Positions 533 through 16,335 of a stretch of 56,220 nucleotides of DNA are shown piece after piece; the stretch's first letter is position 1; the number at the start of each line of letters is the position of its first letter. This DNA comes from Actinomycetota bacterium (GTDB lineage Bacteria; Actinomycetota; Acidimicrobiia; Spongiisociales; UBA5794): positions 1 through 56,220 of the forward strand of contig JAADIG010000092.1 of NCBI GenBank assembly GCA_013151445.1, read 5' to 3'. The notes beneath the pieces were generated by a model, which saw nothing but the letters and a program-made list of their open reading frames with translations, was not told the origin of the DNA and did not search any database. A program made the position numbers and the translations under genes.

Positions 533-1267
533 TCACTGCTGCGCACCAAGTGTCGCTTGGATTGTCTCCTTGAGCGCTTTTTCGAAACGTTCCATTCCTG
601 GCGGCGTGTATTGATACTGGATATATCTGACATGCCGAAGATCGAAGGGCACATCGTTTGAATCCTGAGTGATGAGGACGACGGGTTTGCCCACAGTGTG
701 TGCTATGCCAATCTCGTAGAAGACGTTCGGATTTCGATCGGTGCAGTCTGCAATGACCACCTTCGCATTACAGATGCCATCCCATATGTCCTTCATGATG
801 TCGTGTGTTGTGAAGAAATCGTCAGCCCGCTTCATGCTTAAGTCAAGCCTGTCGGCAACTTTCTTCAGATGGTTGTCATATACGGGCGTCAACTCGTCGC
901 GAAAAGGCATCAATACGAATAGCTCAGCGACTTTAGCTTTCGGGAGATCGACTGGGCGGCCGAAGAAGGGGGTGAACGTTGCCGACTTGCCGGTTTGCCG
1001 TTCAACTAGCTCGATTATGCTCAGACCCAGGACTTGAGCTAAGTCCCCCACAGAGGGAGACAAGCCAATTGTTGCATCGGACTCCCACTCACCGAAGTCC
1101 GCCGTGTCCGTGGTGATTAAACCTTGATTGTGCAGTCCCCGGAGAACGTGAATAAGGTCTCCTTGAGCAGTAAGACCTTGAACACCGAGATGGGAACAAA
1201 GCGTATCGAACTGCATCTCTCCGTACTCGCGCAATACGGCCAAGACGGCCGGTCCCAAGTTAGTCAT
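533..1267 (-). CDS. Winged-helix + nucleoside 2-deoxyribosyltransferase-like protein
   Basis: This is a 244-aa protein. Residues 1-60 look like a winged helix-turn-helix. Residues 114-243 form a Rossmann-like NDT/TIR-like domain with FVLMPF (117-122), IADCTDRNPNVFYEIGIAH (172-190) and a late DLRHVRYIQY strand. In this family the Asp and Glu of the IADCT...NPNVFYE block act on the glycosidic bond of nucleosides or NAD-like ligands, and members are frequent in defence islands. The ATG at 1267 was chosen because AGGAGG lies 8 nt upstream; the 11-residue longer frame lacks such a site. Base composition by eye is lower in GC than the housekeeping genes, which suggests transfer. It neighbours a dead integrase. 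A stress-signalling role is equally possible, and the substrate is unknown. Confidence 0.7.
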   Translation of the reverse strand: MTNLGPAVLAVLREYGEMQFDTLCSHLGVQGLTAQGDLIHVLRGLHNQGLITTDTADFGEWESDATIGLSPSVGDLAQVLGLSIIELVERQTGKSATFTPFFGRPVDLPKAKVAELFVLMPFRDELTPVYDNHLKKVADRLDLSMKRADDFFTTHDIMKDIWDGICNAKVVIADCTDRNPNVFYEIGIAHTVGKPVVLITQDSNDVPFDLRHVRYIQYQYTPPGMERFEKALKETIQATLGAQQ

Positions 1268-1420
1268 CGGATTATCCTCCTTGGCGGCTAGCTGCCTCAC
1301 TCGCCATTCGACGTCGATCCCTTCTACTCACATGGGTCGTACTGTGTAGCGTTGAATTCACTACTCCGCGATAGATCCTAGTCTCACCGTCGATCGCGCT
1401 CATGGGGTCAAGCTCCCTGA

Positions 1421-2384: not shown

Positions 2385-3203
2385 ATGACCAGCCGACTCG
2401 ATCTAGACGAGACAGTACGGGACCACGCATCGGAGCAAATGCGGACCGTGCCGAAGCTTATCGTTCCGAGCATCAGCGCACTCGGAGCCATCGTGAGCGA
2501 GCTGTTCCTGCGGGTCAACCCGTCTCTCGGTCCGTGGCGATGGTGGTTCTTACCGCTCTCTGGCCTTGGGGCAGGATTCCTGGCGTATTCAGGACCGCGA
2601 TTGTGGTTCATGCTCGGAGCCGCGCGGCACCAGAGAGACGCAGCGCGTACGCGACTTCGTGAGATCAAGAGGGCGGCGAGTGAACTCTCCATCGTCGCAA
2701 CCGAGGCTCGTTCTATTCCCGATGGCCCCGGAGCCATTGTCCAGGTTCAGGTCAGGAACGAAGGTCGAGGCGCATTGTTCGCCGTGGTCATCGAGTCAAT
2801 CGTGGGAAGCGAGGAAGGGCTGATCGACCCGTTCGCGCCTTTGTATTGGATGGGAAGGCCGAACGTCTTGGACGAAGAGATTCCGCCAAGGGAGAGTCGA
2901 GTGGTCGGACTTGGTTGGCTCTCTGGGGGCGGATCACGCGGTCTGGAGTTCACGCCAATGTCGCCAGACGGCACCAGTCATCGCAGGAAATACAAGCTGC
3001 TCAAGGGCACAACGACTGTCCGCTTCCTGGTGTCTGCCCGGGGCGTACCCGAGTTCGACTACACGAGGCCAATCAGCGTGTCGATCCGGTGGGAGGGACC
3101 AGGCAATGACCCGCACATTGGAGACCCTACATCGGAGGATGCGATGATTTGTAGGTTTTCGCCGCCCGTCACCAAGTTGCTGGATTTCGGACCCCGAAGG
3201 TAG
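2385..3203 (+). CDS. Membrane-anchored hypothetical protein (two TM + beta-rich domain)
   Basis: The 272-aa product is not recognised. Two hydrophobic segments at about 24-45 and 50-76 are followed by a charged, probably coiled stretch (QRDAARTRLREIKRAASEL, about 83-103). A beta-rich domain with VQVRNEGRGALFAVVIES follows; this resembles the immunoglobulin-like sensor part of small anchored proteins. The start is the ATG after a weak GGCGG. The same layout (two TM, QRDEAL coil, VINHGPKG beta domain) recurs in the 10956-11693 protein, so the two may be paralogues bracketing the island. Cytosolic or external placement of the beta domain cannot be decided from sequence. Confidence 0.55.
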   Translation: MTSRLDLDETVRDHASEQMRTVPKLIVPSISALGAIVSELFLRVNPSLGPWRWWFLPLSGLGAGFLAYSGPRLWFMLGAARHQRDAARTRLREIKRAASELSIVATEARSIPDGPGAIVQVQVRNEGRGALFAVVIESIVGSEEGLIDPFAPLYWMGRPNVLDEEIPPRESRVVGLGWLSGGGSRGLEFTPMSPDGTSHRRKYKLLKGTTTVRFLVSARGVPEFDYTRPISVSIRWEGPGNDPHIGDPTSEDAMICRFSPPVTKLLDFGPRR

Positions 3204-3629: not shown

Positions 3630-3779
3630 CCTGATACCCGGCACCGACTCCGGAAGAACGTTGGGCGTTCGTTACGCGGGTGGCGCTCCCGTTGACCAAC
3701 TCCGGGTGAGACAGCCATCGCCCAGGCAGTCGGCGCGACCTACTCTTCTGTCAGGCTGCAGTGGCGGGACAACAATGGG

Positions 3780-4200
3780 CACGGCCGGGACTTGCGTCGC
3801 CGAAAAGATGTGTAGCTCGTCGGAGCGGTAGCCCCTTTCGGCGATGAGGATCTGGTCCGGTCGGGCCAGGTTGGAGTCCATAGCAATCCTATCGGCGAAG
3901 ACTTCTCGTTCGTCGTGTTCGGCGCCGGTGCGACCGAGCGCTACGGGAGGTCCTGACGGTGTGGCGATGATGTGGTGCCGGAGTCCCCAGAAATAACTCG
4001 ACGGCGACGCGGAGTGACCGTAGATGGCCCAACCATCCAGGTCGGAGCGTTGGGCTGTCTCGCGGCTGCGGCCACATTCGACGGGTGTGGAATCAACGAG
4101 CGGATGACATCGATGTAGCCGGGGCAGCTGCGAGCCAGTATTGCGACAATGTGGCGCGTGGTGATTGCAGCGCCGCGTAGATACTTGTTGCAACCGGACG
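3780..4200 (-). pseudogene. IS982-family transposase remnant
   Basis: Two frames together give an IS982-type transposase core. One reads GCNKYLRGAAITTRHIVAIL. The other reads VDSTPVECGRSRETAQRSDL, then SSYFWGLRHHIIATPSGPPV, then AERGYRSDE. DSTPVECG contains the first catalytic Asp of the DDE triad. A frameshift near 4097 joins the parts; the N-terminus and the last third are missing. No terminal inverted repeats were identified. It sits between the S10 remnant and the promoter of the defence locus. Confidence 0.8.
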
Positions 4201-4538
4201 GACTTGAGGGGTCGGGCCACCCTCGGCTACCAATTCCCGGACCATATGCCAAATCGTAGCAGTGTTCCGGATCCGCAGCGCGGATCCTATCTCGGGATCC
4301 ACACTGCGGACCTTGCCGTCGCGGCCCCCAATACGGCGAGCCCTTTCGTTCACGAAGGGCGGCGGAGCAACCAAGTTCAACCTGTCGGCCGGCTTGAAGG
4401 CACCTCGCGACGTTTGTGAGCCCGCCTGAGCTTCACCGAGGCACATTCTGGGTGTGGCAATCACTATGTAGATTCCGTATTATACGCAATGTATCATGAG
4501 TACATCGCTGCGTCCGTCGATACAGCGGCTATATTGGG

Positions 4539-4598: not shown

Positions 4599-5675
4599 AT
4601 GATCGACAAACAAAGGCGAATTATGCGAATCCCGCTTCCGGTTCCTCTGATCCGGGAAATGGACGCCATCATCCTTCAGGAAGTTGGAGGCTACGTCACC
4701 CGCGCCGAGTTCATTGTCGATGCGATCCAGGAGCGGATCTTGGAGCTGACGATTGGAGATGAGGAGGATGCCGGTGCACCTCGTCCTGTCAATCAAGCGG
4801 TCGAGCAAGCCGAACAAGATGAGGTGGTCGCTAGCGGTGTATCGGCGATGGCCTCCGGTGCAATGACGCCTATGCACCCTCTGCTCGCGCAGACACGCAT
4901 CCAGGTCCCGGCCAGGGGTTTCGCTATTGAAGACCATCCGGTTCGCCCTGATGGAGTGGCCCTCTTTGGGCTCCACAACCGCGACTACCCGTCCTTGTGG
5001 GCGCTCGCACGCTTGGCCGTTGCCGCTGGTGACCAACCGGTCCCAATCGAGTCCTACTACACACAGGTGTTGCTGGATGCGTGGAAGTTCGGTGCCCTCT
5101 TGCTGGCTCTGGAGAAGCAGAGCGGTCCCAAGCGCACCGCTCTTTTCCCTACGAACATCCAGAAGGAGAAGGCTGCCGAGGCGGCCTTCCGTACGTTCGC
5201 GATTGGCGACTACAGGACCGATAGCGGGCAGGTACCCGCCACGCATGGCCCGCTCTTCGAATGGCGGGTGGCGGCTGTCAAAGAAACTTCCGATGGTCTG
5301 CAGATCGGTGTAACAAGCGAGGGATGGGATCTTCTCGGAGCAATCGACGGGATCTCCGTAGACGAACCACACCCGCCATCGATTGCGCGCTCGTTCTTCG
5401 ACCACCTCGCAAGAAACTCGGGAGCTGACTGGGAAGGCTTTGTCGAGATCTTCAACGCCATAGGGAGTGAGGGAGCAAACCGTCAACAGGTACTCAAACA
5501 CTTCGCCGAAGTTTGGTCGGACTGGACGGAGAACGAAGTCTCCACCAACGCAGCTGGATATGTCGCCCGAGCCCGCGAGTGGGGCCTTTTGGAACCCAAG
5601 CAGACTGAGGGTCGTTACCAACTCACTCAACTCGGTCTCGAGCAACTCACTACAAACATGACTGGAGCGATCTGA
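4599..5675 (+). CDS. Ribbon-helix-helix-like N-terminus, unknown partner of GHKL ATPase
   Basis: The 358-aa product has residues 9-50 (MRIPLPVPLIREMDAII, then YVTRAEFIVDAIQERILEL) that fit a CopG/Arc-type ribbon-helix-helix: a short basic strand followed by two helices. The remainder, about 100-358, is not recognised; its last 90 residues (HFAEVWSDW, then RAREWGLLE, then YQLTQLGLEQL) look like a winged helix. ATG 4599 is preferred over GTG 4590 because GAGGTG lies 6 nt upstream. Its TGA overlaps the ATG of the ATPase (TGATG), so the two are translationally coupled. Likely roles are DNA-binding subunit or specificity factor of the ATPase and/or autoregulator of the locus; both are inference. 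Confidence 0.6.
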   Translation: MIDKQRRIMRIPLPVPLIREMDAIILQEVGGYVTRAEFIVDAIQERILELTIGDEEDAGAPRPVNQAVEQAEQDEVVASGVSAMASGAMTPMHPLLAQTRIQVPARGFAIEDHPVRPDGVALFGLHNRDYPSLWALARLAVAAGDQPVPIESYYTQVLLDAWKFGALLLALEKQSGPKRTALFPTNIQKEKAAEAAFRTFAIGDYRTDSGQVPATHGPLFEWRVAAVKETSDGLQIGVTSEGWDLLGAIDGISVDEPHPPSIARSFFDHLARNSGADWEGFVEIFNAIGSEGANRQQVLKHFAEVWSDWTENEVSTNAAGYVARAREWGLLEPKQTEGRYQLTQLGLEQLTTNMTGAI

Positions 5676-7984
5676 TGTCCAGGCACAGGATCGTCGAGGC
5701 AGCGCTCGCAGCCCGAACCACCGAAGAGGCGGCCAAAGTCCAAGACCTTATCGAGGTGGCCATTGGCGCCCGGTACCAACGTCCGATCGGGGACCGCTGG
5801 AACAACCAGGGGTTGCTCACAGCCAGCGGGAGCAACTACAACCACAAGGCACTCGAGGTCGTCACCAACATGCAGGATGCCATTCTTGAGCTACACGCGC
5901 TGCAAGAGTATGGGCGTCACGAGAATGTCCCCTTCAAGACCCCCTACGAGGCTGCCACAGTACTGCTTGCCAGACTCGACAGGAAGGAACGAGCCGCGCT
6001 GGCAACTGTGACTATCGACCAGTCGTCGACGGAAGCTAACAGGAGGCACATCACGCTCCTGATGCGAGACCACGGGTGCGGCATCCGGCCCAATCAGGTG
6101 CCCCGTACGATCTTCCAGATAGGTACAAGCCACAAGGACGGCGTTGACTGGCAGCAGGGCACCTTCGGGCTCGGCGGTGCCACAACCTATCGAAATTCTG
6201 ATGCTGTCGTTCTTGTGACTCGTCGTCATCCCGACCTGCTCCAACCCGGCGATGAAGACCGTATCACCGTTGCCGTAGTGCAATGGGAACGCGTCAGAAC
6301 TACCACCAATGCCTTCTACCTTGTCGCATCGCCGTGGGAACAGCCTGGTGACGAGGCAGCCCCCATTTCGGTCCTGGCCGCGGAGTACCCGGACTTCCAG
6401 CCGGGTACTCATCTCGCTCTCATAGCGTACGCGACCGAGGGCCTCGGCCGGCGTTCAGGAGATGAGCGATCCTTCGACACGGTCTTCAACACACGGCTCT
6501 ACCGGCCGGTTGTCCCGATCAGCTACCGCAACAACATCGTCCGCGCCGAACGGGTTGAGACCCTCGACGGACTCGAACGCCGCTTCGATGACAACCCAGG
6601 TGATCCGGGAACCGAAGGACTCGACACTCTCCCCTTCACGCATGCCGGAGGGACCTATCACCTGCCGATGCGATTCCGGCTCTTCGCCAAGCCGGGGCAG
6701 AAAGGCCAGCGCCGGAACTTCGTCGCCCACGGTCACGCTCTCGTCATTACGTCCAACGGCCAGGTGCACTCGCACTGGCAACCGCAGGAATTCAAGTTCC
6801 GCACGAAACTCAACAAGCTCTACGACCGCATCCTCGTCGTTGTGGAAAGCGATGCGTTGCCAATCGAGGTGCGTACTGAGCTATTCACGGCGGACCGCGC
6901 ACAGCTTGTCCGAAACGCCGCGGCCATCCGGCTGGAACATGAGATCGCCGCCTTCCTTGACGACTGGGCCGCCCTCCAGGATGCGAACAGCGCCCTCATC
7001 AAGGAGGCCATCACGGGTGACAACAACGATCGACCAACTATCGAGGTTGCACGCAAGATCGCGCGCGCTCTCAAGGTCAAAGGGTTCTCCGCAGGCGGCA
7101 CCGGAACCGGCGGCAGTCGACCCAAGCCCCCCGACCCCGTGCCACCCGAGGATCTCTACGACAATCCAACGCATTTCGAGGGCCCAGACGAGGTTGTGGC
7201 ACCCGTTGGCAAGGCCAAAGGCATCTACTTCAAGCTCAATGCCAAGGATGGATTCCTCGGACCCGACGAGAGGGGGAATCTCCACGTCACCTGCGACCAT
7301 CCGGACATTGGTCTCGATGAGATCACCGTCGGTGACCTTCGCTCCGGGCGTGTTCGGGTTAGCATCGCCGTTCCAGAGACTGAGGACCTCGGCCCGTACC
7401 AACTTCACGCAGTCATTCTTCCGTGGCCCAAGTCGTCGGGCGGTTTGGGTCCACAGTTTGAGTGGACAACCAAGCTTGAACTCGTCAGTGAGACGAAGCC
7501 CAAGCCCGGAGGCAAGGGCTCCGGCAAGGACAAGGGCAGCAAGGCGGTTGGCCAGGGGAATCTGGTTGCTCTGATCTGGCGCAGCGACGAGGACAAGGAT
7601 GATTGGAATCCCTCCAGTGTCGGGGACATCGAAATGGTCACAGGGAAGGATCTCGCCGCGCAGAGGGACGAATACGAGGATCTTGCCAAGATTACGGACG
7701 AGATCCCCACGATTGTGCTGAACCGGACCCATTCCCCGCTCAAGAAGTACGTGCAGGCGCGCGCTGTTGAACTCACGGACGACGGTAAGGAGCAGGCCCG
7801 CGAACGTTACGCGGTCGGCGTCGGCGTCGCACTCCTGATACTCAACCAGCAACGTGACAAAGATGTGAAGAACAAGAAGATCCCCGATGAGGAAACATTC
7901 GCCGCTGCCGCGCGAGCCTCCGCGCGAGCGGTTCTTAGCGTTCTACCTGACTATGATCGTCTCGCCAAAGAGCTGGAGGACTAG
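5675..7984 (+). CDS. GHKL (MutL/MORC-like, paraMORC-type) ATPase
   Basis: This 769-aa protein has a clear Bergerat-fold ATP site. The N-box is E61-VVT-N65-MQ-D68-A69; the G1 box is D132-H-G-C-G136; the G2 box GTFGLGG is at 162-168, inside FQIGTSHKDG...QQGTFGLGGA. The region after it (about 190-330) would correspond to the S5-like transducer. A proline/glycine-rich linker (about 475-495) leads to a beta-rich domain (LNAKDGFLGPDERG) and a second GK-rich linker near 610-625. Comparative genomics has placed MORC-like GHKL ATPases in restriction-modification operons, where ATP-driven clamp closure on DNA is proposed. Here it is coupled to the RHH-like gene and lies next to vsr, HNH and a cytosine methyltransferase. 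No SF2 helicase is present. It is not a canonical MutL or Hsp90. Confidence 0.75.
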   Translation: MSRHRIVEAALAARTTEEAAKVQDLIEVAIGARYQRPIGDRWNNQGLLTASGSNYNHKALEVVTNMQDAILELHALQEYGRHENVPFKTPYEAATVLLARLDRKERAALATVTIDQSSTEANRRHITLLMRDHGCGIRPNQVPRTIFQIGTSHKDGVDWQQGTFGLGGATTYRNSDAVVLVTRRHPDLLQPGDEDRITVAVVQWERVRTTTNAFYLVASPWEQPGDEAAPISVLAAEYPDFQPGTHLALIAYATEGLGRRSGDERSFDTVFNTRLYRPVVPISYRNNIVRAERVETLDGLERRFDDNPGDPGTEGLDTLPFTHAGGTYHLPMRFRLFAKPGQKGQRRNFVAHGHALVITSNGQVHSHWQPQEFKFRTKLNKLYDRILVVVESDALPIEVRTELFTADRAQLVRNAAAIRLEHEIAAFLDDWAALQDANSALIKEAITGDNNDRPTIEVARKIARALKVKGFSAGGTGTGGSRPKPPDPVPPEDLYDNPTHFEGPDEVVAPVGKAKGIYFKLNAKDGFLGPDERGNLHVTCDHPDIGLDEITVGDLRSGRVRVSIAVPETEDLGPYQLHAVILPWPKSSGGLGPQFEWTTKLELVSETKPKPGGKGSGKDKGSKAVGQGNLVALIWRSDEDKDDWNPSSVGDIEMVTGKDLAAQRDEYEDLAKITDEIPTIVLNRTHSPLKKYVQARAVELTDDGKEQARERYAVGVGVALLILNQQRDKDVKNKKIPDEETFAAAARASARAVLSVLPDYDRLAKELED

Positions 7985-8137
7985 GTGTGGCAACGAGTCA
8001 GGGTGGAGCCGCGAGCCCGACGGCGCGGTGATGGTTGACGGTGCCATCCGCTGCGTCACGTACTCGGCTGTGTCTCGCGAGACCTTTCCCCCCGTGACTG
8101 GACGTTGCCCCAGACTGCTTCCCCCGCTCGCGTCTGA

Positions 8138-8587
8138 TCACGCTTCCTCTGACCCGTCGATCCGACCGCGTGGGTAGCCGAGGTCGCGCAGGCACTGTTT
8201 CACTCGATCTGCCGCTTCTCGAGGGTCCTTCAGGACCTCGAAATCCCATAGCCTGATCACAGTCCACGCGAATGCGGCCAGCTCGGTGTTTGATCGGCTA
8301 TCTCTGGCCACGTTCTCCGCAATCTTGCGATCCCAGAACTCGCCGCTCTGGCCAGCCTTGTACTTCGAAGGGTGACCGTGCCAGAAGGCACCGTCGACGA
8401 AGACGGCGAGCTTGGCCGGGCCGAATGCGATATCAGGCCGCCCTGGAAGATCGCGACGATGACACCGCCAACCGCGAACCCCGAGCGCCCACAGGGCGCG
8501 ACGTAGAGCGAGTTCGGGCTGCGTATCACTGCTCTTGATCCGGCCCATTATCCGGCTTCGTTCTTCTTTGGTGAACACGTCGGGCAC
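8138..8587 (-). CDS. vsr: Very short patch repair (Vsr) endonuclease
   Basis: The start is GTG 8587, with GGGAG 6 nt upstream; this gives 149 aa, the normal family length, whereas the longer frame adds 27 poorly conserved residues. It opens with the family signature FTKEERSRIMGRIKSSDTQP, followed by LPGRPDIAF and AVFVDGAFWHGHP. These carry the catalytic Asp and the zinc/phosphate-contacting His residues, and the protein ends with VIRLWDFEV. Vsr nicks 5' of T in T:G mismatches that arise when 5-methylcytosine deaminates, so it fits the C5-methyltransferase at 9452-10582. It lies convergent to the ATPase gene and head-to-head with the HNH gene (47 bp between starts), a compact divergent promoter region. 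Confidence 0.9.
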   Translation of the reverse strand: MPDVFTKEERSRIMGRIKSSDTQPELALRRALWALGVRGWRCHRRDLPGRPDIAFGPAKLAVFVDGAFWHGHPSKYKAGQSGEFWDRKIAENVARDSRSNTELAAFAWTVIRLWDFEVLKDPREAADRVKQCLRDLGYPRGRIDGSEEA

Positions 8588-8634
8588 GGTCTGCTCCCGG
8601 GTTTGGCGCGAGTCTTTACGGTACCATCCAGCTA

Positions 8635-9459
8635 ATGACACCCGCCGAGCCCCCAGACGACCTTTCACTCGCCGAACTCGCTACTAAGGCGATTGCGGCA
8701 CTTGGACTCGTTAGTGGAACTGATTCGGTGCTCAGAAACCAACAGAGGGTGGTCGAGGCCGCTATCGCCACCGAGGAGCTGGCGCGTCGGCTGAGGCACG
8801 GCAGGTCGGGACGAGACGTCATCTTGGAAATTCTGAAGGCCGCCTCTCCCGGCGAAATCTCCGCTGATTTCCTGCGCCACACCTCCGGAATCCAGGAGTT
8901 CGCTCGCCGAATTCGCGAACTGCGGGTGGAGTTCGGCTATGACGTGGAGACAACTAGGTCGGGCTACCGGCTTCTTTCGACCAATCCTGACTCGGCGGTG
9001 GCGGAGAAATGGGCCTTGATGAATGAGATCAGGCGGCGCAGCACATCGGCGATGCAGAGGATTGAGGCCCTCTTCCACGCACGGCTTGGTGAGATCATCA
9101 CTACAAGGGATATCGAGTACGTGTCCAAGATCAGTTCCGGCCCGAGACGGGTACGAGAGATGCGGACAGAGAACGGCCTCCGGATCGAATCCCATAAGGA
9201 CAATCCGGACCTGCGTCCCGGGGAATACGTGCTGTTGGACCCCGAACCGATACCCGCTTCGGAGCGCACCGTCGACGCGAGTCAGCGTGAGCGGATACTC
9301 GAACGCGATGGACACGCGTGTGTGCTTTGCGGCCGAGGGCCCGACCGCAAGAACCGTATCTGGCTGGAGGTGGACCATATCACCCCACTCGCTGACGGGG
9401 GCGGGAACGACGACGCCAACCTACGGACCCTCTGCAACGAGTGTCACCGGGCTAGATGA
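8635..9459 (+). CDS. HNH endonuclease with duplicated winged-helix-like N-terminus
   Basis: The 274-aa protein ends in a zinc-stabilised HNH module: C229-x2-C232, LEVDHITPL (D247-H248), GGGNDDANL with the central Asn, and C267-x2-C270-H271. Two similar segments precede it: about 76-114 (FARRIRELRVEF to SGYRLL) and about 149-202 (RRVREMRTENG to PGEYVLL). Each has a recognition-helix-like R-x2-R-E-x-R core followed by a wing, so they read as tandem winged helices. It is probably the restriction nuclease of the island, with Dcm as the protecting methylase. Its end overlaps the end of the methyltransferase gene by 8 bp (convergent), which leaves no room for an intergenic terminator. Confidence 0.85.
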   Translation: MTPAEPPDDLSLAELATKAIAALGLVSGTDSVLRNQQRVVEAAIATEELARRLRHGRSGRDVILEILKAASPGEISADFLRHTSGIQEFARRIRELRVEFGYDVETTRSGYRLLSTNPDSAVAEKWALMNEIRRRSTSAMQRIEALFHARLGEIITTRDIEYVSKISSGPRRVREMRTENGLRIESHKDNPDLRPGEYVLLDPEPIPASERTVDASQRERILERDGHACVLCGRGPDRKNRIWLEVDHITPLADGGGNDDANLRTLCNECHRAR

Positions 9460-10582
9460 CCATCGGGATAGGGGCCTCGAGTTGGTCCAGGACACTGCCG
9501 GCAATCGCCTCTGCGAGACCCACAGGGACGGCGTTGCCGATCTGGCGTGCGATCTCGATTTTCTTCCCGCACCACGAGAAGTCGTCCGGGAACCCTTGAA
9601 GGCGAGCAGCCTCCCAGTGCGTGATCGGTCTGTTGACACGGGACTCCGGGTTGTCCACCGTCCATTCGGGATGCAGATACTGCCCCTTCTCCGGTTTGAA
9701 GAACTCGGTACGAATCGTGAGCGATGGGGCGTCCCAGCGCATCCGTCCCATCACATCGGTAGTTCCGGACGGCTTGTTACGCCAGCAGTCCGGGAGTAGC
9801 TCGTAGGGGAGGTCGAAACGACCCCCTCCCGGGGGAACGTAGTCGTACCGTTCGAGCGAAAGGGGTCTCGGATTTCTGCCGAGATGTAGGTCCGCAGCCT
9901 TGAAGATCCCGGGAAGCATCTGTCCGAAGAACTCTACCCTGCTGTCGGGAAGGATCGATGAGCCGGTTTCGTAGGGGATGTCGACGAACGCCTCCCGTAC
10001 GGTACGCCAGGCCAGTTCACCGTTCCCGTGCTTAGCGTGGCGAGGGACAGGCAGCTCCGGTCGACCGATTCGCGACCCGACAACAACAGTCCTCCGTCGG
10101 CGCTGCGAAACACCGAAGTCCGCCGCGTTGAGAATGGCCACCTCGATGGAGTAGTCCCGCAGCACACCCGAGCGGATCTCCTCCTCCAGAAGCCCAAACT
10201 CGTGGGACGACCGGAACCGGTCCACATTCTCAATCACGAACATCTTGGGGCGTGCGTGGGTAACCACGCGCACGTACTCCCGCCACAACCGGTTGCGCGG
10301 ATCCGCGGGATCACGCGTCCCGAGGTTCGAGAACCCCTGACACGGCGGACCGCCGATAACGACGTCAACTTCCGGCACAGAAGCGTCCGACAAATCGCCT
10401 ATGTCTCCGCAGAAGATGTGGTCCTCCCCGAAGTTTGCCGCGTAGGTGGCGGCTGCCGACAGGTCCCATTCAACAGCCAACGTCGGACGAAACCCCAGGT
10501 TCACGAACCCTCGAGTCATACCGCCACATCCCGCGAAAAGATCGATAACGGTGGGACCGTCAGGTCTATATTCGTAACTCAT
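9452..10582 (-). CDS. DNA (cytosine-5-)-methyltransferase
   Basis: The 376-aa protein has the standard C5-MTase motifs in order: motif I DLFAGCGG (14-21), motif IV GGPPCQGFS with nucleophile Cys81, motif VI ENV (118-120), motif VIII QRRRR (160-164) and motif X QIGNAVP near residue 350. The target-recognition region lies between VIII and X and does not reveal the recognised site. I place the start at the ATG of MSYEYRPDGP because family members begin about ten residues before motif I; a 15-residue longer frame starts at 10627, and neither has a strong ribosome-binding site. With Vsr next door it makes 5-methylcytosine that needs T:G repair, and it probably protects against the HNH nuclease. 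Confidence 0.9.
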   Translation of the reverse strand: MSYEYRPDGPTVIDLFAGCGGMTRGFVNLGFRPTLAVEWDLSAAATYAANFGEDHIFCGDIGDLSDASVPEVDVVIGGPPCQGFSNLGTRDPADPRNRLWREYVRVVTHARPKMFVIENVDRFRSSHEFGLLEEEIRSGVLRDYSIEVAILNAADFGVSQRRRRTVVVGSRIGRPELPVPRHAKHGNGELAWRTVREAFVDIPYETGSSILPDSRVEFFGQMLPGIFKAADLHLGRNPRPLSLERYDYVPPGGGRFDLPYELLPDCWRNKPSGTTDVMGRMRWDAPSLTIRTEFFKPEKGQYLHPEWTVDNPESRVNRPITHWEAARLQGFPDDFSWCGKKIEIARQIGNAVPVGLAEAIAGSVLDQLEAPIPMVI

Positions 10583-10955
10583 GTGGAAATCGCACGCATG
10601 TAGTTCATAGGCCGAACGATACAACATGTGTCGGACAGATTCTTGTTACATGGGAGAGTCTTCTCAGTCGAGTCGGCGACAGGTGGGTGCTCCGACACTC
10701 CTCGCTTTCTTGTCCCCCCGGCACAAGGGTTGGTCGTTCGGTCTGTTAGTTGCCACGTGAGACAAACCGCGCATTGCGCAAAGACTGCACTTCGGCATCA
10801 CATGGGCGAGGCGCGAACCGGACCCACCGACTGCCCACATGCTCGCGCCGGCACGGGGCCGCAACACGAGCGACCAAATGGATCCGAGTGGGTAACGTTC
10901 ATGAAGGGATTCCCTACGTCCGGCTCTAGTAACCTCGAAAGTCGTGGGAGAGCGA
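10583..10955. other. Divergent intergenic region, no supported gene
   Basis: This stretch separates the methyltransferase start from the next plus-strand gene. It should hold the promoters for both. A short TTGCGCAA palindrome near 10775 is the only repeat I noticed. Frames at 10628-10963 (plus) and 10664-10867 (minus) have no protein-like pattern. Confidence 0.4.
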
Positions 10956-11693
10956 ATGTCTGAAGGTATTTGGAGCCGAGCGTTTCGGGACGCTCGCGGT
11001 CACTGGTTCACGAGTGCAGTGGGCCCGCTCGGCCTGGCGTTCCTTGAGGCGACGGTCGCGGAGATCGCTCTTCCGGCTGAACCGACGTTTGCTGACCGAG
11101 CGCTGGCATTCCTCACCGTTGCCGGTGTCTTCGCTGTTGCCGTCTACATCTTCCACCTGTGGCGCGCCCCGTTCAGCCAGCGCGATGAAGCCCTGCAGTT
11201 GAACCGGGAGCTAGCGGATGCTCGTACCCGACCTCCGTTCAGATTGGAGTTCAGAGATACACCTCCCGAGGATGGTGGTGGACCCCGCCTAATTGTCCGA
11301 CACAACGTGATCAACCACGGACCGAAGGGGAAGTTCCGGGCCGAGTTCGAAAGAGTCGACGGATCCAGGAGTACAACCGCTCGCATTCCCCTTGAGTGGA
11401 CGAATCGGAGAGGCGACCGTGAGATCGCGATCGAGGGCAGCGGTACCGAGGCCCAACTCACTCTCGGCGAAATGGCGGTCAGCGATGATCACGCACGTTT
11501 CTTCTACTTTGTGGCGCGGACCCCCGACGGTCCGGGGACGGATCAGATACGACCATCGGCGGGTGTGGGCTGGATACGCGTAACTGTGAGAGTTGTCAAC
11601 GTCGATACAGAACAAGATGCCAGCGTCCAATTGATCATCGGAGCCGACGCGAATGGGCCGTTCGCGAAAGCGGCACGCTCCTCGGCTGACTGA
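10956..11693 (+). CDS. Membrane-anchored hypothetical protein (two TM + beta-rich domain)
   Basis: The start is ATG 10956 with GGGAG 5 nt upstream rather than GTG 10944; this gives 245 aa. Hydrophobic stretches at about 22-38 (VGPLGLAFLEATVAEI) and 46-66 (ALAFLTVAGVFAVAVYIFHL) form two membrane segments. A QRDEALQLNRELADA coil and a beta-rich domain with RHNVINHGPKGKFRAEFE and WIRVTVRVVNV follow. No catalytic motif is seen. The same layout in the 2385-3203 protein on the other side of the island suggests a shared family. Function unknown; anchoring or a membrane-linked role in the defence locus is conceivable but untested. Confidence 0.55.
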   Translation: MSEGIWSRAFRDARGHWFTSAVGPLGLAFLEATVAEIALPAEPTFADRALAFLTVAGVFAVAVYIFHLWRAPFSQRDEALQLNRELADARTRPPFRLEFRDTPPEDGGGPRLIVRHNVINHGPKGKFRAEFERVDGSRSTTARIPLEWTNRRGDREIAIEGSGTEAQLTLGEMAVSDDHARFFYFVARTPDGPGTDQIRPSAGVGWIRVTVRVVNVDTEQDASVQLIIGADANGPFAKAARSSAD

Positions 11694-15297: not shown

Positions 15298-16335
15298 TTA
15301 CGCGTGGCCTGCCACGTAGACGTCGAGTTCGCTGATCCAGCCTGCCCTGTCTTCCCAAGAAGCAAAAGTCGCCTCCAACGAATGACGAGCAAGCTGCGCC
15401 AAGTCGGATCGAGAAAGATCGAGCGCCTCCGCGACGGCCACATAGTTGTCGGCAATGTACCCCCCGAAGTATGCGGGATCGTCCGAGTTGACCGTCACCT
15501 TCACGCCACGATCCATGAGCCGCTTCAGGTTATGGTCTTGGAGGCGATCGAGAACGCCGAGGGCGAGGTTCGATAGCGGGCACATCGTCAACGGCACCTC
15601 CGATTCGACTAGTCGGCCTACAAGAACCTCGTCTTCCTCGCTTCTAACTCCGTGGTCGATTCGTTCAACCCCGAGGTGATCGAGGGCAGCCGTCACATAC
15701 GCCGGGGGGCCCTCCTCGCCAGCGTGCGCGACCGCCCGCAGACCGGCGACTCGAGCGAGCTCAAACGCGTCGGCGAATAGTTGGGGTGGGTTGGGAACCT
15801 CCGAACTGTCGAGGCCCACACCAAGCAATCGGTGGTGATAGGCGGAGGCTTCTCGGAACGTCTCGCATGCGGCTTCACCAGACAGATGCCTCAGGTAACA
15901 CAGGATGAGGCCTGCCGAAATCCCGACCTCACCTTCGAGATCGTCAATGGCTCTCAGGAAGCCGGGCATGAAGATGTCGTAGCCCACCCCCCTCCCGGTG
16001 TGCGTTTGGGGGTCGAAGAAGATCTCCGCCCTTCGTACACCGTCAGCAGCGGCGCGGCGCAAATATGCAGCCATCAAGTCATAGAAGTCCTGTTCGGTCA
16101 CAAGGACCGATGCTGCCTCGTAGTAGATGTCGAGAAACGATTGAAGATCCACAAACGAATATGCGGCCGCAACATCATCGACCGTTGAGTACGGGATCTC
16201 GACACTATTGCGTTTCGCGAGTTCGAACATGAGATCCGGTTCCAACGTGCCTTCGATATGTACGTGCAGTTCTGCCTTCGGAAGACCCTTGACATACGAC
16301 TCAAGTGAAACAGTCACTTTCTCTTCACTCTCCAA
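15298..16335 (-). CDS. Adenine deaminase (adenosine deaminase superfamily)
   Basis: The 345-aa protein has zinc ligands H24-x-H26 in PKAELHVHIEGT, then HAGEEGPP and ERIDHGVRS blocks and the terminal SDDPAYFGGYI. The last motif is the mark of the adenine-deaminase branch of the Add family; true adenosine deaminases read SDN or TDN here (compare 50514-51551). The reaction would be adenine to hypoxanthine plus ammonia. It is the last gene of a minus-strand run with an ABC importer (45 bp after the permease), so the imported compound or a breakdown product may be purine-like. The exact substrate is uncertain. Confidence 0.75.
   Translation of the reverse strand: MESEEKVTVSLESYVKGLPKAELHVHIEGTLEPDLMFELAKRNSVEIPYSTVDDVAAAYSFVDLQSFLDIYYEAASVLVTEQDFYDLMAAYLRRAAADGVRRAEIFFDPQTHTGRGVGYDIFMPGFLRAIDDLEGEVGISAGLILCYLRHLSGEAACETFREASAYHHRLLGVGLDSSEVPNPPQLFADAFELARVAGLRAVAHAGEEGPPAYVTAALDHLGVERIDHGVRSEEDEVLVGRLVESEVPLTMCPLSNLALGVLDRLQDHNLKRLMDRGVKVTVNSDDPAYFGGYIADNYVAVAEALDLSRSDLAQLARHSLEATFASWEDRAGWISELDVYVAGHA

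Follow-up and report, generated by a model that had tools for sequence, protein, structure and literature searches.

An RHH protein and a GHKL ATPase as a co-inherited accessory pair exchanged among type II restriction cores

A ribbon-helix-helix (RHH) protein and a GHKL+S5 ATPase, encoded by coupled genes next to Dcm, HNH and Vsr genes, constitute a co-inherited accessory that is exchanged among restriction cores. The five genes had initially been annotated as a single unit; they are in fact two modules, namely this pair and a Dcm+HNH+Vsr core. The pair probably assists restriction systems in an ATP-driven action on foreign DNA that does not involve the usual helicase. In the textbook view, type II restriction enzymes require neither ATP nor partners. 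That a MutL/MORC-like ATPase and a DNA-binding adaptor of its own are swapped as a unit suggests that type II restriction has an accessory layer dependent on ATP.

Gene content and genomic setting

The window (the whole 56-kb stretch of DNA that was analyzed) belongs to a genome of 3.07 Mb in 159 contigs. All five open reading frames noted initially were confirmed, with the following coordinates:

4599..5675, plus strand: RHH adaptor protein of 358 aa when started at ATG 4599; the open frame extends up to GTG 4590
5675..7984, plus strand: GHKL+S5 ATPase, 769 aa, with TGATG coupling to the RHH gene
8138..8587, minus strand: Vsr-type very-short-patch endonuclease; likely start GTG 8587, with the open frame reaching 8668
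8635..9459, plus strand: HNH endonuclease with a wHTH-like N-terminal part; probable restriction partner of Dcm
9452..10627, minus strand: C5-cytosine DNA methyltransferase (Dcm)

The ORF list gave GTG 4590 as the start of the RHH gene; because a GAGGTG ribosome-binding site precedes ATG 4599, the latter is the likely start, as had been annotated. The RHH and ATPase genes had been described as fused; they are coupled via a common TGATG and are two separate genes. Shared or overlapping boundaries had also been described for the other three genes. The 3' ends of the HNH and Dcm genes do overlap, by 8 bp, and a 5' overlap of the Vsr and HNH genes is doubtful because the conserved N-terminal sequence of Vsr is matched more closely by a start at GTG 8587 than by one at 8668.

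Vsr was assigned with 113 bits (NCBIfam cut-off, 97.85), and Pfam matches were obtained for the HNH endonuclease (E=4.8e-10) and the C5 methylase (E=4.4e-61). A Dcm with an adjacent HNH endonuclease has the composition of a type II restriction-modification system, and HNH homologues adjoin Dcm homologues, with no RHH-ATPase pair, on four plasmids (Sphingomonas, with Vsr; Pandoraea, with Vsr and HNH fused; Acidithiobacillus; Halorussus). A Mycobacterium paragordonae plasmid likewise carries a Vsr+Dcm+NgoMIV core without the pair. Since cores occur without the pair, the trio was regarded as a type II core of the ordinary kind, to which the pair is an accessory. Dcm+HNH+Vsr is a self-standing core in which Dcm would methylate, HNH would cut, and Vsr would repair deaminated methylcytosine. 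In the Pandoraea plasmid (L073, 4398-5756), it is the protein annotated as Vsr that ends in a C-terminal HNH domain, and this fusion adjoins Dcm.

The window Dcm is 58-68% identical to Dcms beside NgoMIV or NaeI enzymes in related loci. GCCGGC is a possible target, because the nearest Dcm relatives adjoin one of these two enzymes; the observed/expected ratio of this site in the 56-kb window was 0.67, a weak under-representation. NgoMIV had no match in the window's genome, in a search in which the control genomes were also silent. The best PADLOC match of Dcm was DruM2, but Helicase_C is absent from the contig, and no Dru match was obtained among the other neighbors tested; the locus was not assigned to Druantia type II.

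Several features were observed around the locus. To its left (1411-2177 and 3675-4220, both minus strand), fragmented tyrosine integrase sequences (PF00589) together with what is left of a DDE transposase suggest an old mobile island. Two flanking proteins (2385-3203 and 10944-11693, both plus strand), neither of which had a match in Pfam, NCBIfam, or PADLOC, share 28% identity across 176 aa (pairwise E=3e-4). The 255-residue protein encoded at 533-1300 (minus strand) resembles nucleoside deoxyribosyltransferases weakly in its C-terminal part (PF05014, E=6.7e-4) and matched a TIR effector model of PADLOC (E=1.4e-8); it is a possible NAD- or nucleotide-cleaving effector. Adenosine deaminase genes lie both near the window locus (15298-16335) and near a relative described below (L042, 6062-7189), which may reflect either chance or a common integration neighborhood.

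Co-inheritance of the pair and exchange of the core

The pair was found in six further independent loci (L004, L005, L006, L007, L009, and L020), i.e. in seven with the window; L008 (100% identical to L004) and L019 and L021 (on the same contigs as L006 and L009, respectively) were counted together with their counterparts. In an order-wide survey of 137-138 genomes, four had the RHH gene, and precisely these four also had the close ATPase. The identity matrices of the two proteins were correlated across the seven loci, a small sample with common ancestry (r=0.88, exact Mantel p=0.0012), and neither matrix tracked that of Dcm (r=-0.08 for RHH and -0.11 for the ATPase). Exchange of the core is evident between L004 and L005: their RHH proteins are 86% and their ATPases 89% identical, the Dcms are only 52% identical, and the restriction enzymes differ. 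The identical genome distribution and the correlated divergence bear out the proposal that the two proteins form a conserved pair.

The neighboring genes are more variable. Dcm was nearby in all seven loci and Vsr in six (it was not detected in L009); HNH was present only in the window and L020. NgoMIV was found in L007, L009, and L020, NaeI in L005, and an NgoMIV-like enzyme in L004 (hhalign probability 84%). Every close locus has a restriction enzyme except L006, in whose short contig none was seen. The Dcm/Vsr/HNH trio, which had been placed in one locus type with the pair, is therefore not specific to it, given these counts and the HNH-Dcm pairs that stand alone elsewhere. It had also been held that wide occurrence of the pair without the trio would speak against a distinct locus type; this holds in part, as remote homologues of the RHH protein and of the ATPase do occur without the trio, but the close pair was accompanied by Dcm wherever it was found.

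Several pair loci lie among known defense genes. Upstream of the pair in L004 are Gabija-like genes (a GajA fragment and GajB), and L005 contains QatA, QatC, QatD, AbiTii, and SduA. In the suggested screen of the coupled proteins themselves, neither PADLOC nor NCBIfam placed the RHH protein or the ATPase in a convincing family.

Three irregularities were noted in these loci and a remnant. A 7,788-bp stretch is identical between L004 and L008, which come from MAGs titled Acidobacteria and Microthrixaceae; this could stem from a common contig, from a binning error, or from very recent transfer, and the phylum labels should be treated with care. In L009, a frameshift at 5067-5208 splits the ATPase frame on a low-coverage contig and may be an error or decay. 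In the remnant L030 (1-760), the start of the RHH protein runs directly into an ATPase fragment beginning at residue 358, an apparent internal deletion.

Domain structure of the ATPase and the adaptor

The N (EVVTNMQDA, residue 61), G1 (DHGCGI, residue 132), and G2 (GTFGLGG, residue 162) boxes of the ATPase are all present, as had been noted, and they are conserved in the close family; the Pfam match to HATPase_c was weak (E=0.049). In an AlphaFold model of modest confidence (pLDDT 63), residues 39-464 adopt a GHKL+S5 fold similar to those of Hsp90 (Z 17.7), MORC3 (Z 14.8; 297 aa aligned, rmsd 3.9), TopoVI-B (Z 14.6), and MutL (Z 13.5). The GHKL/S5 region (ca. 5789-7066) is followed by an Ig-like domain (ca. 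7157-7489) and an alpha/beta C-terminal extension (ca. 7562-7981). These ca. 300 conserved residues after S5 form a C-terminal extension such as paraMORC1 has, and the ATPase may be paraMORC1-like. The label "paraMORC-type" used initially holds loosely, since the MORC motif GhXhhpXXRhl is absent from S5 in the window ATPase and its relatives and the paraMORC2 motif ExxxH does not occur between residues 250 and 480. Scans with Pfam and PADLOC gave no DUF4263 (RE-fold) match, and comparison of the ATPase profile to a HEF_HK protein (E=0.037, negative domain score) did not place it in that family, which is defined by HATPase_c_3 and HEF_HK domains. The ATPase had no match in the viral contigs or phage records searched.

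The annotation of the partner as an RHH-like protein was upheld: a profile built from nine family N-termini matched the RHH structures of NikR (E=2.4e-4) and EndoAI (E=1.5e-3). The RHH domain (ca. 4617-4763) is connected by a low-confidence linker to a C-terminal region (ca. 4950-5672) that, according to the model, probably comprises two winged-helix domains. The protein is conserved beyond the RHH domain, and model residues 127-361 resemble winged-helix proteins with Z up to 8.6, PadR/MarR-type regulators among them; the model is of modest confidence (pLDDT 62), and all fold matches have Z < 9. Residues 121-361 also align with the recognition domains of FokI, BpuJI, and PaqCI (Z 7.3-7.6, 172-192 residues, rmsd 4.5-4.8), which is only a hint of tandem winged helices because Z values below 8 may reflect no more than a common arrangement. 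The adaptor was not found in the plasmids or phage records searched, and Foldseek comparison to viral models returned nothing with E below 0.001.

RHH and winged-helix domains are frequent in repressors. This, together with NikR and EndoAI as the nearest RHH structures and the PadR/MarR-type fold matches, would suit an RHH protein that is mainly a transcriptional regulator of the operon (a control protein), with the ATPase as its ligand- or DNA-responsive modulator. Such a role is improbable, however: the RHH protein co-varies with the ATPase and not with the methyltransferase, and the search upstream of the RHH genes yielded no conserved palindrome resembling an operator, a clearly unusual one being present only in L005.

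Helicases at the locus and in relatives

As had been noted, no SF2 helicase is present at the locus: Helicase_C is absent from the window's contig, and all 8 matches in the genome are on other contigs. The Z1 helicase was absent from the window's genome, in a search that was positive for the Corynebacterium glutamicum control; of seven pair-bearing genomes searched, none had it. A relative with a helicase is L063, which contains Vsr, Dcm, an ATPase 39% identical to that of the window, a second GHKL protein with an exact MORC motif (GFYFYRHDRLL), an uncharacterized protein of 325 aa, and a Z1 helicase (PF10593, E=2.5e-51) in which the motif DTLMQMGRWFG reported in 2008 is found; the RHH gene is absent. 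L063 represents the operon type with a helicase that Iyer et al. described in 2008 (PMC2292703). The idea that the RHH adaptor replaces the helicase is compatible with this distribution (Z1 without RHH in L063, RHH without Z1 in seven genomes), which amounts to one contrast.

The wider ATPase clade

Among 395 genomes of the class searched with profiles, 12 contained ATPase relatives. On a Rhodococcus plasmid, an ATPase 47% identical to that of the window is preceded by a DndB-like gene at the RHH position and followed by NgoMIV, Dcm, and Vsr. In a FastTree tree, the L063 ATPase and then that of Rhodococcus fell outside the RHH-bearing group.

More distant subclades have other partners; their HARE, SeqA, and winged-helix assignments are below curated thresholds and are tentative. 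In L042 (7334-11045), an N4/N6-type methyltransferase is accompanied by a GHKL ATPase and a coiled-coil/HARE-like protein overlapping by 4 bp, and L022 (9943-13720) has a similar set. In L067 (6938-11286) and L069 (6887-11083), a SeqA-like RHH protein (the L067 protein gave no SeqA match and that of L069 a weak one, E=0.052) is coupled to the GHKL ATPase beside a convergent methyltransferase-like gene; the adaptor has a further conserved C-terminal region, probably winged-helix. No recognized restriction enzyme adjoins these four methyltransferase-adaptor-ATPase cassettes or, in part, that of L065, whose adaptor partner is cut off by the contig end. Other relatives (L003, L048, and L049; Ensifer, Devosia, and Hymenobacter) are near SspB/C/D genes. 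In L028 (10436-14862), an RHH homologue (36%) overlaps the gene for a different, 875-aa GHKL-like protein, recognized by motifs alone, and a third gene without an assigned function is present; no methyltransferase was recognized nearby. L020 (10738-16251) and L067 (11691-16879) occupy the same chromosomal site in two congeneric genomes, the flanks being 94% identical; the site holds different systems of the ATPase clade and looks like a defense hotspot.

These subclades bear on whether the pair could itself be an anti-phage unit that senses or clamps unmodified or modified DNA in a MORC-like way, with the methyltransferase for self-marking and the restriction enzyme dispensable. The cassettes without a recognized restriction enzyme, the SspBCD-associated relatives, the movement of the pair independently of the core, and the Gabija, QatA/C/D, AbiTii, and SduA neighbors in L004 and L005 are in its favor. 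We consider it unlikely, though a serious alternative, given that no nuclease or other effector domain was recognized in the adaptor or the ATPase (Pfam, PADLOC, NCBIfam) and that the close family has a restriction enzyme everywhere but in L006. More broadly, the ATPase clade with its coupled RHH/winged-helix adaptor could be a general ATP-dependent, helicase-free module that clamps unmodified DNA across chemically different modification defenses, i.e. m5C type II restriction, N4/N6 methyltransferases without restriction enzyme, and SspBCD phosphorothioation; this generalization is speculative and rather unlikely to hold.

The same subclades weigh against a repair function. The ATPase might substitute for MutL in Vsr-dependent T:G mismatch repair at methylated sites in bacteria without MutSL: MutL cooperates with Vsr in E. 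coli (PMC2292703), certain Actinobacteria are described as lacking MutSL in PMC12892979 and PMC12649562, and six of the seven close loci have Vsr. L009, however, has the ATPase and Dcm with no Vsr detected, no Vsr was seen near the ATPases of the N4/N6-methyltransferase and SspBCD subclades, and the plasmid cores have Vsr without the ATPase, making this the least probable of the readings considered.

Proposed mechanism

Our preferred reading, held tentatively and at somewhat less than even confidence, is that the accessory pair aids the type II core through an ATP-driven clamp or loop on unmodified DNA. The adaptor, with its RHH domain and probable tandem winged helices, would bind DNA and position the ATPase. 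ATP-driven closure of an ATPase dimer, as in MutL, MORC, and TopoVI-B, would then form the clamp or loop and help the partner nuclease in locating unmodified sites, bridging them, or staying on them. The analysis established what the genes are, their coupling, the joint inheritance of the pair, its exchange among restriction cores, and the lack of an SF2 helicase on the contig; that the two proteins form a complex, act as a clamp or loop-former, and enhance restriction is our inference.

In favor of this reading are the constant presence of a Dcm near the pair, the correlated divergence of its two proteins, the exchange seen between L004 and L005, the resemblance of the ATPase model to Hsp90, MORC3, TopoVI-B, and MutL, and the recurrence of translationally coupled DNA-binding-like partners beside a methyltransferase in distant subclades (L042, L022, L067, L069). 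Most of the partner enzymes found are NgoMIV (type IIF) or NaeI (type IIE), types that are described as looping DNA or requiring a pair of sites (PMC4081073), in line with loop formation; this argument is not directly applicable to the window, where the nuclease is an HNH enzyme and not a known two-site enzyme. Several observations stand against this reading. The complete cores without the pair on the Mycobacterium, Sphingomonas, Pandoraea, Halorussus, and Acidithiobacillus plasmids presumably work. Also to be counted are the RHH homologue of L028 with its unrelated GHKL-like protein, the DndB-like gene of Rhodococcus, and the modest confidence of the models. The role of bacterial MORC-like ATPases has been conjectural since 2008, and the locus would offer a compact setting for testing the adaptor, the ATPase, and the restriction core one by one.

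Comparison with known systems

The closest systems are the MORC/paraMORC operons (PMC2292703), in which Dcm, Vsr, and sometimes HNH are neighbors of a GHKL+S5 ATPase whose motifs are intact and which extends C-terminally beyond S5; the paraMORC1 family in particular has the C-terminal extension and may co-occur with HNH. In L063, an ATPase of the window type occurs together with MORC, Vsr, Dcm, and a Z1 helicase. The window differs in having neither the MORC motif nor a helicase, and in that its pair is exchanged between type II cores. The coupled RHH-winged-helix adaptor is not mentioned in the available portions of PMC2292703.

The HEF_HK/Response_reg_2 paraMORC-like pairs (PMC8011034), where GHKL proteins with C5 methylase and Vsr were described, also are type II loci with a partner gene beside the GHKL protein. 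There the partner is receiver-like, whereas here it is an RHH protein, and the HEF_HK protein that was compared had no meaningful match to the profile of the window ATPase. The ATP-dependent restriction endonuclease CglI (PMC5737866) is a functional analogy in that a separate ATPase subunit assists the restriction enzyme; in CglI this subunit is an SF2 helicase bearing a Z1 domain, whereas the window has a GHKL ATPase, in a genome without Z1. The NgoMIV and NaeI type II systems share with the window a Dcm of 58-68% identity and differ in the nuclease, which here is HNH. Shedu type I-D (paraMORC3, e.g. VcSduA; PMC12137116) similarly employs a GHKL ATPase in anti-phage defense; it has a DUF4263 nuclease domain of its own, and none was recognized here.

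The proposal of a distinct defense subtype stands in part. Helicase-free loci combining GHKL proteins and methylases are known (PMC2292703, PMC8011034), a minority of helicase-free GHKL restriction loci having been noted already in 2008 by Iyer, Abhiman & Aravind, so the absence of a helicase alone is not new; the conserved RHH-ATPase pair favors the proposal. In the open-licence papers searched, neither the RHH-winged-helix adaptor nor an exchange of the pair between restriction cores was described. Any novelty of the locus relative to these systems would lie in that adaptor and in the exchange of cores, not in the missing helicase.
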